Shown one piece after another: positions 3,601 to 27,235 of a stretch of 64,000 bases of DNA. Every line of letters starts with the position of its first letter. The stretch's first letter is position 1. The position numbers and the translations under genes are program-made. Below the pieces are notes generated by a model, which worked only from the letters and a program-made list of their open reading frames with translations, did no database searches and was not told the origin of the DNA. The DNA comes from Ignavibacterium sp. (GTDB taxonomy: Bacteria > Zixibacteria > MSB-5A5 > GN15 > PGXB01): assembly GCA_020724775.1 (NCBI GenBank), contig DYGG01000001.1, positions 62,001 to 126,000 on the forward strand. The letters run 5' to 3'.

Positions 3601-6222
3601 ATGAGAGGAGTCGTTAGTAGGCTACACGTTGTGGTATTCACTTCAATCGTTAGTTTGATGGCAGTCTCTGTCAAGGCAGTTACGATCTCAGTAAAGTCTA
3701 TCCCTGAAGATGGTGTTGCCGTTTGGATAACACCTGCGGATAATTTAGGTAGGACAAATGGGATTACTCCTTTTAATTGCGAATATGACCTCAATGACAA
3801 TGTGACATTTACCGCTTCGAATCCGGCTCTGGGGCGTGCTTTTACTGCATGGTGGCAGAATTGCGGTGTTTACACTATCCAGCAGAATGCTACTATTGCC
3901 ATCACCGGCACGTTTACAATGACATGCGAGTATACCAAAGACGTGCCAACGGCCGTTAGTGCAAGTGGCCAGTGCGGTCAAATAAGGGTGACTTGGAATT
4001 CAGTGACAGGAGCAAACGGGTATTGCGTATATAGGGATGGTAATCCCTTGCCGTTGGCGTGCCCTACAGCATCACCATTTACTGACACCGATGTTGGCAC
4101 TGCTCAACATTGTTATCAGATTCAAGCTACCTTTGGGTGCTTCTACCCATCGGCGAAATCAGCATCAGCATGCGCAACAGCCGCTGCTCCGCTCGGTAGT
4201 GTTACGCTATTGAGCCCCCCGGATGACATTGAAAATCAGATACAGCCATTATTGCTCGATTGGCAAGACTTAATTGGTGCCACCCAATACCATCTGTCAA
4301 TTGACGACAATTCTGATTTTACGAGCCCCATAGTCGATGTGAATACAAATTCGTCAGACTATTATGCCACTGGTCTAGGCGATGGAGTTACTTACTACTG
4401 GCGCGTACGCGGCAATAATGCGTGTGGTTGGAGCGGTTGGAACAACCCTTGGTCTTTCACCACCATTTGTAATACACTTGGCCCCGTAACACTACTCTTA
4501 CCTCCGAATGGCGCGCCCGATTTGGAGCAGCCATTGTTCCTCGACTGGGAGCCCCTCAGCGGCTCGACCCAATATAATATTCAGGTTGATGACAATTATG
4601 ATTTTTCAAATCCTGAGGTGGACTATCAAACCGGTAATTCTGATTATAATTTGTCTGGGCTGGCGGTCGGCATCACCTATTATTGGCGAGTTAGGGGTTA
4701 CAATGGATGTGACTGGGGTGCATGGAGCGAAATCTTTGAATTTACTTTGCGATTTGCTCAGCCAAACAGCAGTTCTTTTTGTGATAGTTTTGAAAGTGGC
4801 TGGCTAGATGGTTGGACTATTGTACCAGGGGTGGGCGGGCTCCCCGAGCAGATAACATCACCAGTGCATAGTGGTGATTACGCACTTAGATTCCACAGCA
4901 ATGCATCCGGCAACTGTATCACTGCAATATATCGAAGTGACTTTGAAGCGAATTTAGGCGAATACAGCGCATATGTATACCAGACACATTCTCAGGCCGG
5001 TTTCGCAGTTTATATTCAAGTCCAGTTTCCTGGTACCTATCCATTCGGTAGTGATAATTATGAAATAGACTATCAGGCGGCAGACGCGTATGGGGGCGGC
5101 ATATTGGCGATCCACAAACGTCACAATAACTCATCTCAATTTTTAACATCAAAAGCGGCGCTATTTACGATGAATGAGTGGGTTTTTGTGTTTGCAAGGA
5201 GGCTAAATAATTCGACCCTTATCGCCGGGTATGAACGCCCCAATGGCTATCGTGATTCCATTATCTACGAAGACGTTTACCCAATTATTGCGCCTGGCAA
5301 GTTCGTAATTGCATCTTGCGCCGATTTCTATTCTACGGCTCACTTTTGGGACGACGTTTGCTTTGAATCAATATCTACAGATACGATTGTTGAATTCAGT
5401 ATAGACACGCTCTATTATTCTCGACCGGCAGGGCATGAATTTGATACAACCTTCTATATCAGAAACGAGTCTGATTTTCCCGTCGAGTGTATTATTGAAC
5501 ATACACCTTACATACCTTATTCAGTCTACTGCAGTTTGAGTGATATCTGTACTATTCCGGCGCACGATTCGATACCGGTAACCTTTGATGCCTTTACAGA
5601 AGGATGCTATCCCTATGTTGGAATGATAGACACCATTACAGTGTTGTTGTTCGTTGGTGGGAATGAGCGAGACGCGGTCATTGCTATTGAAACTGTGACA
5701 CTGAATCAGCCACCTTGTAATACGAAAATCTCACTGGTAAACGTAACAGATTCCATTAGGATTGGGGAGACTCTCATAATTGACTTCGAAGATGATTGTC
5801 CGCATGGTTTAGCGGAGGACTGCTTTCAGAGAATAGACGTTGCGTATTCTATCGACAGCATGGTCTCTTGGGTTCCAATAGATAGCAACATATATGTGAA
5901 TGGTTATGACTGGAGGATAGTCCCGGATACGTTTGGCGAGAAACTCTTTCTCAAGATAGAAGGTACAGACTGGTTTATGGTACCGGTCAATGATACAGCA
6001 GGCCCGTTTCCCCTCTATTACATGTGCGGCGATGCCAATGCCAACGGCTCTGTAAACATTCTGGATGTTACATTTCTCATTGCTTATCTATACAAAAACG
6101 AACAAGCCCCTAATCCTATTCAAGCGGGTGATGCCAACGGCAATGGGGTAGTTAATATACTTGACGCGACTTATCTCCTAAGTAAATTGTATAAAAGCGG
6201 TCCAGCACCTATCTGTCCCTAA
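3601..6222 (+). CDS. Secreted multidomain protein with FN3-like repeats and C-terminal dockerin
   Basis: An 873-residue exported protein. The N-terminus (to about residue 25, 'SVKAVT') looks like a signal peptide, and the start is supported by GAGGGAGG at 3588-3595. A cysteine-containing FN3-like domain (about 120-195) is followed by two near-duplicate FN3-like repeats, each ending in 'YYWRVRG' (near 262-269 and 361-367). A region beginning 'FCDSFESGW' resembles LamG or carbohydrate-binding domains. The last ~65 residues form a dockerin-type pair of calcium loops ('GDANANGSVNILD' and 'GDANGNGVVNILD'). No catalytic domain is recognised, so adhesion or scaffold binding is likely. The gene looks more AT-rich than its neighbours. 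No cohesin gene is visible in the window. Confidence 0.65.
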   Translation: MRGVVSRLHVVVFTSIVSLMAVSVKAVTISVKSIPEDGVAVWITPADNLGRTNGITPFNCEYDLNDNVTFTASNPALGRAFTAWWQNCGVYTIQQNATIAITGTFTMTCEYTKDVPTAVSASGQCGQIRVTWNSVTGANGYCVYRDGNPLPLACPTASPFTDTDVGTAQHCYQIQATFGCFYPSAKSASACATAAAPLGSVTLLSPPDDIENQIQPLLLDWQDLIGATQYHLSIDDNSDFTSPIVDVNTNSSDYYATGLGDGVTYYWRVRGNNACGWSGWNNPWSFTTICNTLGPVTLLLPPNGAPDLEQPLFLDWEPLSGSTQYNIQVDDNYDFSNPEVDYQTGNSDYNLSGLAVGITYYWRVRGYNGCDWGAWSEIFEFTLRFAQPNSSSFCDSFESGWLDGWTIVPGVGGLPEQITSPVHSGDYALRFHSNASGNCITAIYRSDFEANLGEYSAYVYQTHSQAGFAVYIQVQFPGTYPFGSDNYEIDYQAADAYGGGILAIHKRHNNSSQFLTSKAALFTMNEWVFVFARRLNNSTLIAGYERPNGYRDSIIYEDVYPIIAPGKFVIASCADFYSTAHFWDDVCFESISTDTIVEFSIDTLYYSRPAGHEFDTTFYIRNESDFPVECIIEHTPYIPYSVYCSLSDICTIPAHDSIPVTFDAFTEGCYPYVGMIDTITVLLFVGGNERDAVIAIETVTLNQPPCNTKISLVNVTDSIRIGETLIIDFEDDCPHGLAEDCFQRIDVAYSIDSMVSWVPIDSNIYVNGYDWRIVPDTFGEKLFLKIEGTDWFMVPVNDTAGPFPLYYMCGDANANGSVNILDVTFLIAYLYKNEQAPNPIQAGDANGNGVVNILDATYLLSKLYKSGPAPICP

Positions 6223-25138: not shown

Positions 25139-26821
25139 ATGAGAGATAAATCATCAATTGCAGAGTTGCGTAAGGTCTTAGTCCGCCGAAGGCGGGCGAG
25201 ACCTGACGCCATTGGGCGGGCACCGATCCGTCTGGCTCTATCTCTACTGATTCTCACCTCAATTATTACCCCCTCAGTTTCCCACGCCGATTGGATAACC
25301 GCCGGGCAGTTCTCCGAAAAGGCAGGGATTGACTCGATTAATCGTTTTATTGTCATCCCAGACCTTGACACAAACAAACTCTTCGGTTGGCGTATACTGC
25401 CTTTGGGCGACATAAATGCCGACGGTGCCGACGATATCTTAATTCACAAGTGGTTAGGGGACATTTTTATTGATAACCCTACCTACCTGTTTCTTGGTGG
25501 CCATCCTCCCGATATTAACTACGACACGATATTCAATAACTTTAAATATTCCCTGGGCATGATTGGTGATGTCAATGATGACGGCTTTTCAGATATCGGA
25601 GTCACGCCATTCCCCAGCCTGAGCTTTGCGTTACATTTTGGCGGGCCAAATCCAAGCGATACCCCCGACTTTGTCATCCCCAATATGTGGTCCTGGATGA
25701 CAACGGCGGTTGACCTGGATGATGATGGTGAATTAGAACTGCCTCTAAGCAAGAATGTAAATGGCGGTCCGGTGAAGATTTATCATATAGGTTCAAACAG
25801 AGACACGATTCCTGAATATGTAATAAACGATACAGCAAAGGGTTTTGGCGGAAGTCTCGCTACTGGGGACTTTAATGGTGACAACTACGAAGACTTAGCA
25901 ATTGCAGCATTTCGCGATTATTTTCCGGAAGACTCGGCATTTGTGAAATTCTATTGGGGCGGCCCGACATTTGATACAATTGCCGACTACGTCATACGAA
26001 GCCACTCGAATTTCTTCGGTCTCTTTATGTTTTCCCTTGGCGACTTCAATGCAGATGGATATGACGACCTTTACATTTCAGGAGACGGCAATGACGCTTT
26101 CGGAATACATTTCGGTGGCCCCCAATTGTCTGGCTCCCCAAACCTGCCCGTCAATCAGTGGATTTATGGTGGATACATTCCGCCTACTTCCGCCGCCCCA
26201 GCGGGAGATGTAAACAATGATGGATACCCCGATTTGATAATAGGCTACTCTAACGATGTGCAGTTCGTAAATGAGATAATGGTCTATCTGGGTGGCCCTG
26301 ACGCTGATTCGATTTATGACGTTCGATTGGAAAATCTGCAGATGCCAGGCGACCAGAGCTACTTCGGGGAAGTTGTTGCTGGTGTTGGGGATTTCAATGG
26401 CGATGGTGTAGATGATTTTGCTGTAAAGTCGAGAAAAAACTTGGATTGCAGCAACTGTGACCAAGCGGAGGTTAACTTTTTTGCCGGTTGGGATGGTACT
26501 CCTACTGATGTCCCCTATGAATTCGAACGAACCCTTCCCACAACCTATGCACTTAATCAGAATTATCCCAACCCCTTCAACTCTTCCACCACCATCTCCT
26601 TCGACCTCCCCCGCCGTGACCAAGTCACCCTTTCCATTTACGACATCACCGGCCGCAAACTCCGCACCCTCATCAATAATACCCTCTCCGCCGGTTCTTA
26701 TTCCGTCACCTGGGACGCCCGCAACTCCAAAGGCGAATCCGTTTCCACCGGCATCTACCTCTGCCGCCTCAAATCCTCCTCCTCCACCTCCTCCACCCGC
26801 AAACTGCTGCTTCTGAAATAG
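25139..26821 (+). CDS. Secreted FG-GAP/VCBS beta-propeller with FlgD-like sorting domain
   Basis: A 560-residue exported protein. Seven calcium-loop repeats ('DINADGADD', 'DVNDDGFSD', 'DLDDDGELE', 'DFNGDNYED', 'DFNADGYDD', 'DVNNDGYPD', 'DFNGDGVDD') suggest a seven-bladed propeller, typical of surface adhesins. The last ~80 residues carry 'NQNYPNPFN' and end 'TRKLLLLK', a FlgD/type IX-like sorting tail. This tail (from about 26540) is strikingly C-rich compared with the AT-richer propeller. The arginine-rich N-terminus ('VRRRRARPD') is encoded by a REP-like palindrome (25173-25204), so the true start is uncertain. A signal segment follows at about residues 30-50. No Shine-Dalgarno is visible. 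Confidence 0.7.
   Translation: MRDKSSIAELRKVLVRRRRARPDAIGRAPIRLALSLLILTSIITPSVSHADWITAGQFSEKAGIDSINRFIVIPDLDTNKLFGWRILPLGDINADGADDILIHKWLGDIFIDNPTYLFLGGHPPDINYDTIFNNFKYSLGMIGDVNDDGFSDIGVTPFPSLSFALHFGGPNPSDTPDFVIPNMWSWMTTAVDLDDDGELELPLSKNVNGGPVKIYHIGSNRDTIPEYVINDTAKGFGGSLATGDFNGDNYEDLAIAAFRDYFPEDSAFVKFYWGGPTFDTIADYVIRSHSNFFGLFMFSLGDFNADGYDDLYISGDGNDAFGIHFGGPQLSGSPNLPVNQWIYGGYIPPTSAAPAGDVNNDGYPDLIIGYSNDVQFVNEIMVYLGGPDADSIYDVRLENLQMPGDQSYFGEVVAGVGDFNGDGVDDFAVKSRKNLDCSNCDQAEVNFFAGWDGTPTDVPYEFERTLPTTYALNQNYPNPFNSSTTISFDLPRRDQVTLSIYDITGRKLRTLINNTLSAGSYSVTWDARNSKGESVSTGIYLCRLKSSSSTSSTRKLLLLK
25173..25204. repeat. REP-like palindrome, copy 1, inside a coding region
   Basis: Outer arms AGGTCT / AGACCT and inner arms CCGCC / GGCGG around GAA form a nested hairpin, followed by GACGCC. 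Its core closely resembles the element at 27195-27235. It encodes the Arg-rich N-terminus of the propeller protein or lies just before the real start. Confidence 0.6.
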
Positions 26822-26892
26822 GCTTCACCGCAGAAGTCGGGTCGCTACTTATGGGAAAGCCTCGGGATTCCTGACACCGCATTAGAACTGTA

Positions 26893-26944
26893 GGGGTCGA
26901 CCAATGTGTCGACCCGGTCTCATCGTGCAAGGCAGGATGAGACC
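26893..26944. repeat. Two adjacent palindromes downstream of the propeller gene
   Basis: GGGTCGAC-caatgt-GTCGACCC (26894-26915) is directly followed by GGTCTCATC ... GATGAGACC (26916-26944). Both stems are perfect. Neither has a T-run. They look like decayed repetitive elements. Confidence 0.5.
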
Positions 26945-26961
26945 ATCTAAGAACCTTGGTG

Positions 26962-26986
26962 CCCCACCCCTTGGGGTGGGATTTTA
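26962..26986 (+). terminator. Hairpin with T-rich tail, possible terminator of the propeller gene
   Basis: CCCACCCC-TT-GGGGTGGG is followed by ATTTTAT. The 11-base sequence GGTGCCCCACC that starts it recurs inverted at about 27063-27073, so it may also be part of a larger repeat. Confidence 0.5.
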
Positions 26987-27083
26987 TAAACAGATTCCGT
27001 ACTATATTCTACCCCACCGCAAGTCGCCGCGGTCGAAGACTCGCCGAGGAGAGCGACCAGGACGGTGGGGCACCATCCAGGTA

Positions 27084-27190
27084 TAGACCGGGAACATGGT
27101 ATACAATTTAGACCGGCAAGATAGTATACAGGTTAGATTACGGTACGAATAAGGAGGTTTATCGTGCCGTGGAAAGAGACCTGTATTCGC
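27084..27190 (+). mobile_element. Left-end remnant of an IS481-like insertion sequence
   Basis: Two 22-base direct repeats, 25 bp apart (27084-27105 and 27109-27130), share 19 bases and end in GTATACA. They are followed by AAGGAGG (27151-27157) and a GTG at 27164 that opens 'MPWKETCI', the usual start of IS481-family transposases. After eight codons the frame runs into the REP-like palindrome at 27195, so the rest of the transposase is gone. Family assignment rests on that short start and is moderate. Confidence 0.5.
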
Positions 27191-27194
27191 CGTT

Positions 27195-27235
27195 CCGTCA
27201 GGTCCTGCCCGCCGCAGGCGGGTGTGACCTGACGG
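27195..27235. repeat. REP-like palindrome, copy 2, at the IS break point
   Basis: A perfect 10-bp outer stem CCGTCAGGTC / GACCTGACGG encloses a perfect inner stem CCCGCC / GGCGGG around GCA. It shares core sequence with 25173-25204. The remaining 250 bp to 27485 hold nothing I can name. Confidence 0.7.

Follow-up and report, generated by a model that had tools for sequence, protein, structure and literature searches.

The REP elements of E. coli (y, z1 and z2) and their transposase TnpA-REP are among the closest described relatives of the elements studied here. In that system (PMC8266576; PDB 4er8), a REP has an unpaired 5' foot, fixed contacts in the lower stem and a bulge, and the gene lies between inverted copies. 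The unpaired bulge and fixed lower-stem positions matter for TnpA-REP, while the upper stem and the loop can be swapped and removal of the upper stem abolishes binding, as if this part were needed as a shape (PMC8266576). A survey of these genes reports that every tnpAREP is matched by a REP family particular to it, and also describes TnpAY1 subclass 2.6 (Quentin et al. 2018), mostly from Bacteroidetes, as flanked by "atypical secondary structures" that lack a GTRG foot and have further copies in the genome (PMC6006769). The CGTC REPs of Di Nocera et al. 2013 are small palindromes, some of them intragenic, with CGTC or TGTC on one side in many copies; they have an unpaired CGTC, loops of 4-5 and a CCA tail, and no associated transposase (PMC3733652).

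The two palindromes in our stretch of DNA belong to a family of this known kind, and its GTT foot, the freedom of its stems and its phylum make it a variant. It shares with E. coli REP/TnpA-REP the unpaired 5' foot, the fixed lower-stem positions, the bulge, an upper stem kept as shape, the gene between inverted copies and homologous proteins. Its foot is GTT, whereas that of E. coli REPs is GTAG and typical REP feet are GTAG or GTGG, and its upper stems are far more diverse than those of E. coli. In several subclasses the Q that follows a conserved W has been reported to take part in reading GTAG; the transposase clade described below has M, E, N or T at this position. This clade, likewise flanked by structures that lack a GTRG foot and recur in the genome, matches the tyrosine motif YIH[QN]NP of subclass 2.6 with YIH.NP, but has [ST]H.H where that subclass has NH[LIV]H, and lacks the Q of its WQ (PMC6006769); we therefore provisionally place it near subclass 2.6 and not in it, the hairpins having been compared by description. 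Like the CGTC REPs, the family consists of small palindromes, some intragenic, many with CGTC or TGTC on one side. It differs from them in that CGTC lies in the stem, where it changes on both sides (GTGTC/GACAC, for example), and in that its copies are associated with a RAYT.

A literature search for RAYT or REP together with Zixibacteria or Zixiibacteriota found no paper on REPs of this phylum within a coverage that left out most subscription papers, and the main text of PMC12306157 does not contain "Zixi". The present family adds a REP/RAYT pair with a non-GTAG foot in a phylum for which that search found none. Otherwise ordinary in kind, it is a variant worth recording for this foot and for stem changes that occur on both sides, even at shared sites.

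A dispersed family of REP-type hairpins

The window, the whole stretch of DNA analysed, is a 64-kb part of contig C17 of the source genome, a draft of 3.07 Mb that we call G000. C numbers denote contigs and L numbers the sequence loci examined, and G001 is the sole genome of the same genus that was compared with G000. The initial annotation had placed palindromes at 25173-25204 and 27195-27235, and both are present there; the full elements, W1 and W2, are slightly longer because the 5' GTT belongs to them. The window has exactly two instances of the motif CCGCC-N3-GGCGG, where 0.11 would be expected, and two or more arose in 0 of 100 shuffles. Folded as single-stranded DNA, W1 reaches -15.4 kcal/mol (z -4.3) and W2 -20.3 kcal/mol (z -6.5), with equal stability in 0 of 200 shuffles. 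The features are these:

25139..26821, + strand: host gene of W1, an FG-GAP protein with a C-terminal secretion-sorting domain (ORF, domain search)
25165..25209, + strand: W1, REP-type element (model E 1.6e-6, fold, same site in G001)
25165-25167: GTT foot of W1
25168-25177 with 25200-25209: lower stem of W1
TTA / GA: collar of W1
25181-25187 with 25191-25197: upper stem of W1
27085..27189, + strand: IS481-type remnant, comprising the upstream end and the first 7-8 transposase codons, adjoining W2 and outside the element
27192..27235, + strand: W2, REP-type element (model E 1.8e-11, fold, same site at G001:C73:1192-1242)
27192-27194: GTT foot of W2
27195-27204 with 27226-27235: lower stem of W2
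CTG / TGT: collar of W2
27208-27213 with 27217-27222: upper stem of W2

The host frame runs through W1 before it reaches a stretch resembling a signal peptide, giving the putative N-terminus MRDKSSIAELRKVLVRRRRARPDAIGRAPIRLALSLLILTSIITPSVSHA, and it is open in both G000 and G001, in support of the in-frame reading by which W1 had been taken to code for the start of a secreted protein. An ATG lies inside the element in G001, which bears on the putative start codon of the host gene. A paralogue of this gene in G000 (L279, C73:1-1500) lacks the element and begins with a signal peptide of the ordinary sort, with homology from SVSHADWI onward. We propose that W1 chances to be read in frame and would so give basic residues ahead of the signal peptide.

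W1 and W2 are members of a dispersed REP-type family. A covariance model (R1), built from seven equal-length copies, found at least 66 non-overlapping places in G000 at E<=1e-3, at least 68 at E<=0.011, and at least 63 rows in G001; these counts are lower bounds, 150 of 888 candidates in G000 and 150 of 871 in G001 having been scored. At least one further G000 copy, C29:11925-12012, lies outside the scored set. In a MAFFT alignment of 38 copies the inner stems fell out of register, and R1 was therefore not built on it. These counts go against the case that the initial annotation had named as its refutation, a genome with only its two copies; it was right to speak of a REP-like palindrome family, and a cognate RAYT transposase has been found besides. 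The pattern CAGGTC-N10-36-GACCTG occurs at 31 places in G000, some of them plainly chance, against 2 for the reversed pattern. Across 40 genomes of the order (G000 included, some of them drafts) a stricter pattern, GTCAGGTC-N8-38-GACCTGAC, was found in 27, or 26 of the 39 relatives, and its reversed pattern gave 0 matches in all 40. Chance origin was rejected on the window shuffles and these reversed-pattern controls. The copies are mostly non-coding, with 4 of 41 in G000 lying within an ORF of at least 150 aa against 590 of 820 random positions. As imperfect palindromes of 20-60 nt in many dispersed, mostly extragenic copies, they are REPs in the broad sense.

REPINs, reportedly described by Bertels and Rainey in 2011, are said to be closely spaced inverted pairs of REPs and the unit of spread. 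Paired copies of this appearance occur in several relatives (e.g. L107, L088, L087 and L096), whereas in G000 neighbouring copies within 350 bp form 17 pairs, 16 in the same orientation and only 1 inverted. Other copies stand in tandem rows on C52 and C32 at spacings of 61, 69 and 173 bases. A subclass of 87-88 nt, 10 of the 68 G000 copies, carries a long extra hairpin in the loop and in most cases the lower stem GCGGCAGGTC (L115, L116, L119, L125, L138, L071:3149 and L079:3926).

From 5' to 3' an element begins with an unpaired GTT foot, followed by a lower stem of some 10 bp whose last pairs are GGTC/GACC. Above it is a collar in which YT on the left faces GN on the right and in which mismatch or wobble is conserved. 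The upper stem, some 5-9 bp long, is nearly free in sequence yet still pairs, and is closed by a short loop. Because R1 spans the foot, foot counts among model-found copies are biased towards GTT. In 100 distinct copies chosen from all loci by GGTCYT...GNGACC and at least five of six outer pairs, with the foot not a criterion, GTT stood in 81, GTN in 90 and GTA in 2; the family does not have the 5' GT[AG]G foot of canonical REPs.

The RAYT clade and its proposed reading of the hairpin

Six Pfam Y1_Tnp matches occur in G000, and a protein search adds a seventh close gene at C2:23681. The RAYT gene at C73:25046-25522 (159 aa) stands between copies of the family. Together with the genes that share at least 50% identity with it, it makes up a sharply bounded clade of 15 genes in 13 of the 40 genomes, with bit scores of at least 169 against 95 for the next match in these genomes. 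Clade proteins score 90 bits against the NCBI model NF047646, "REP-associated tyrosine transposase" (cut-off 80), and the structure of E. coli TnpA-REP, 4er8, is matched at E 3.7e-12. Their motifs are P[ST]H.H and YIH.NP, with H60, H62, Y120, N124 and P125 invariant in all 15, so that the HUH motif, the single tyrosine, the Y---NP signature and the family model all identify them by sequence as RAYT/TnpA-REP proteins. An IS200/IS605 TnpA was rejected, the signature being Y---NP instead of Y---Q and NF033573 giving 22 bits, below its cut-off of 55.

Model matches lie within 100 bp on both sides of 13 of the 15 clade genes and are inverted at 12 of these 13; at the C73 gene of G000 the flanking copies are in the same orientation. 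One flanking match at L150 has E 0.012. L170 has a match on one side only, its contig stopping 37 bases beyond the gene, and L141 has no model match within 1.5 kb. The same search at 33 other RAYT loci, some cut by contig ends, found none with matches on both sides and four with a match on one (L159, L164, L165 and L181). At the density of G000, a copy would fall within 150 bp of a gene, on any one side, in about 0.4% of cases by chance. Among 80 of 559 matches listed, in named genomes, the close clade appears in three Zixiibacteriota records, two of which have copies on both sides and the third a copy directly downstream and another 180 bp upstream. More distant RAYTs (30-40% identity) from Ignavibacteria and Bacteroidota have a few weak matches nearby; these are short, plain hairpins whose feet are GTT or GTG. 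A clear clade gene is present in 13 of the 40 genomes and the strict pattern in 27, and copies can thus outlive or lack a close RAYT. Sites resembling attC, considered on architecture alone, were dropped once the RAYT link appeared.

On the strength of these sequence comparisons, W1 and W2 are very probably REP elements, hairpins that are not autonomous and that this cognate RAYT clade of Zixiibacteriota recognises in single-stranded, folded form; binding, cleavage, mobilisation, the strand and the bases that are read are what we infer. We envision that, where the DNA becomes single-stranded (on the lagging-strand template, say), the 5'-GTT and the hairpin would fold, and that the RAYT, a HUH-type Y1 transposase (TnpA-REP), would read three features, namely the foot in its unpaired state, the GGTC/GACC where the lower stem ends and, just above this, the mismatched collar, and would cut and join near the foot. 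The upper stem would be needed as a shape only, leaving its sequence free to drift while pairing holds. The conservation seen here is what reading of the E. coli type would leave over long times. The order-wide sample amounts to a natural selection experiment for what TnpA-REP reads, in which invariant columns point to contacts, and columns whose changes are always coupled indicate a need for shape. The E. coli result that the upper stem acts only as a shape becomes testable on a distant relative, and the scheme offers a reason for the little resemblance between the REP families of different genomes.

One of the five other RAYT genes of G000, C69:36080-36529, has weak model matches on both sides (E 0.0012 and 0.016), and its flanking hairpins prove on reading to be of a different type (TTCCGTCAGGAG...CTGACGGCG; L077:4992-5057, 5634-5674 and 5759-5788), with similar ones elsewhere, e.g. 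at L044:29-62. Judged by sequence, G000 seems to have here another REP family, served by a RAYT of its own.

Changes on both sides of the stem

Among 88 distinct inner sequences (10 of 98 having been excluded for length, 14 or over 45) there are 62 different first 5-mers of the upper stem, and all five tested upper pairs form in 53 of the 88, against 11% with arms swapped between copies. In the seven equal-length copies 93.7% of pairs form, a level reached in 0 of 500 shuffles, and 9 of 18 pairs change on both sides, the G-U pairs among these changes keeping the fold. Near RAYT genes two-sided changes extend to the lower stem beyond GGTC, with GTCA, GCAG, GTTG, GGTG or TGCC seen before GGTC or GGGTC. 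The W1 site of G001 carries the form CAGTTC...GAACTG, and both bases of a stem pair have therefore changed at a single shared site.

These changes could be mutational and not selected. Correction of quasipalindromes is established, and hairpin-templated correction that copies one arm into the other would let palindromes keep pairing while they drift. At a site common to both genomes (G000:C67:38010, L071:2992-3044; G001:C34:28753) the left collar is TTG in G001 and ACA in G000; the three-base block exactly mirrors the right arm and makes the palindrome perfect in G000, imperfect in G001, which suggests a templated correction. We nevertheless think it rather unlikely that correction is the whole explanation. 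It leaves unexplained why GGTC/GACC, the GTT foot and the mismatched collar stay fixed across the order while neighbouring pairs change, and it does not account for the flanking of RAYT genes. Templated correction may instead act together with recognition by the RAYT.

A possible, still tentative extension of RAYT recognition is that a single RAYT lineage keeps hairpins with unrelated stems by reading only the GTT foot, the 4-bp stem end and the mismatched collar, with arm-to-arm correction moving the rest in step and new copies perhaps overwriting old ones in place. At one shared site (C44:14523 / G001:C208:1404) the copies have the same place and orientation and different outer and upper stems. 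There, in G001 (L288:1381-1480), a left half-element stands directly before a complete one, as if a new copy had landed in the old.

The hairpins could also be mainly RNA elements, 3'-end stabilisers or terminators selected as transcripts, with the RAYT neighbourhood secondary. Published REPs can act in RNA (PMC3733652), and the mostly intergenic placement (4 of 41 copies in long ORFs), the copy directly after prfB in G000 and two-sided changes that preserve the fold through G-U pairs would all suit such a role. We consider it improbable: no U-tract follows W1 or W2, the two-sided flanking of one RAYT clade (13 of 15 genes) is not expected of an RNA element, and the prfB copy is absent in G001, where both flanks were found and the stretch between them is rewritten. 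A known Rfam RNA was rejected, no family matching in the three loci scanned.

Age and turnover of the copies

The flanks of 41 G000 copies were searched against 34 G001 sequences, and at least five sites are common to the two genomes: W1, W2, C14/C167, C67/C34 and C44/C208, two of them resting on one flank. The copy at C14/C167 is identical. At W1 the two genomes align without gaps at 92% through the element. At W2 homology is contiguous in the right flank and a common 70-bp block lies further left; the IS481 remnant, which in G000 stands to the left of W2, between the element and this block, is absent in G001.

These comparisons bear on the proposal of the initial annotation that both copies transposed recently, W2 landing in an IS and cutting off its transposase. 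W2 does adjoin an IS481 frame that ends after about 7-8 codons (at L058, a relative's locus, a longer frame from the same start matches PF13011 LZ_Tnp_IS481 above cut-off and runs off the contig end), and some copies are present in only one congener. The implied order of events finds no support in G001, which has W2 without the remnant; W2 therefore did not land in the IS after the genomes split, and the idea that the element broke the IS was rejected. Recent transposition of the two copies is accordingly very unlikely, and for the time since that split it is refuted; nor do W1 and W2, both at the same sites in G001, support the "active spread" that had been suggested. By these alignments both are old residents. 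The likelier course is that W2 was already in place when the IS arrived beside it, or that the IS was afterwards trimmed there; it is possible that the IS was lost in G001, and also that an older W2 inserted into an older IS that G001 later lost.

Other copies have turned over. Thirteen further G000 sites were probed in G001; at the C33:61282 site only the left flank was found, and no copy follows it. Copies that differ between the congeners indicate that members of the family are mobilised or lost over times as short as the divergence within a genus, although none of the probed sites of the two genomes proved to be a clean and precise empty counterpart of a single REP. At L119:1457-1619 (G000:C19) a 163-bp segment with an 88-nt copy is missing at G001:C28:1165-1172, where both flanks align. 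This segment, with the ends GAGG-TGTCTC...GGGACAGCCTC, occupies the loop of a hairpin resembling a terminator and is likely a MITE carrying a REP. That the family as a whole is a MITE of another transposase with terminal repeats is most improbable: the copy in this segment (C19:53801) and similar ends at four other loci speak for it, but the long class makes up 10 of 68 G000 copies, those ends occur at only 5 of 13 such loci, and W1 and W2 lack terminal repeats.

At L072:4807-5040 (G000:C73) a 181-bp direct duplication comprises one REP copy and the 3' end of the RAYT gene. In the window, positions 26957-27075 hold a second dispersed inverted repeat (GGTGCCCCACC ... GGTGGGGCACC), which occupies the same place in G001 and adjoins many REP copies on other contigs.
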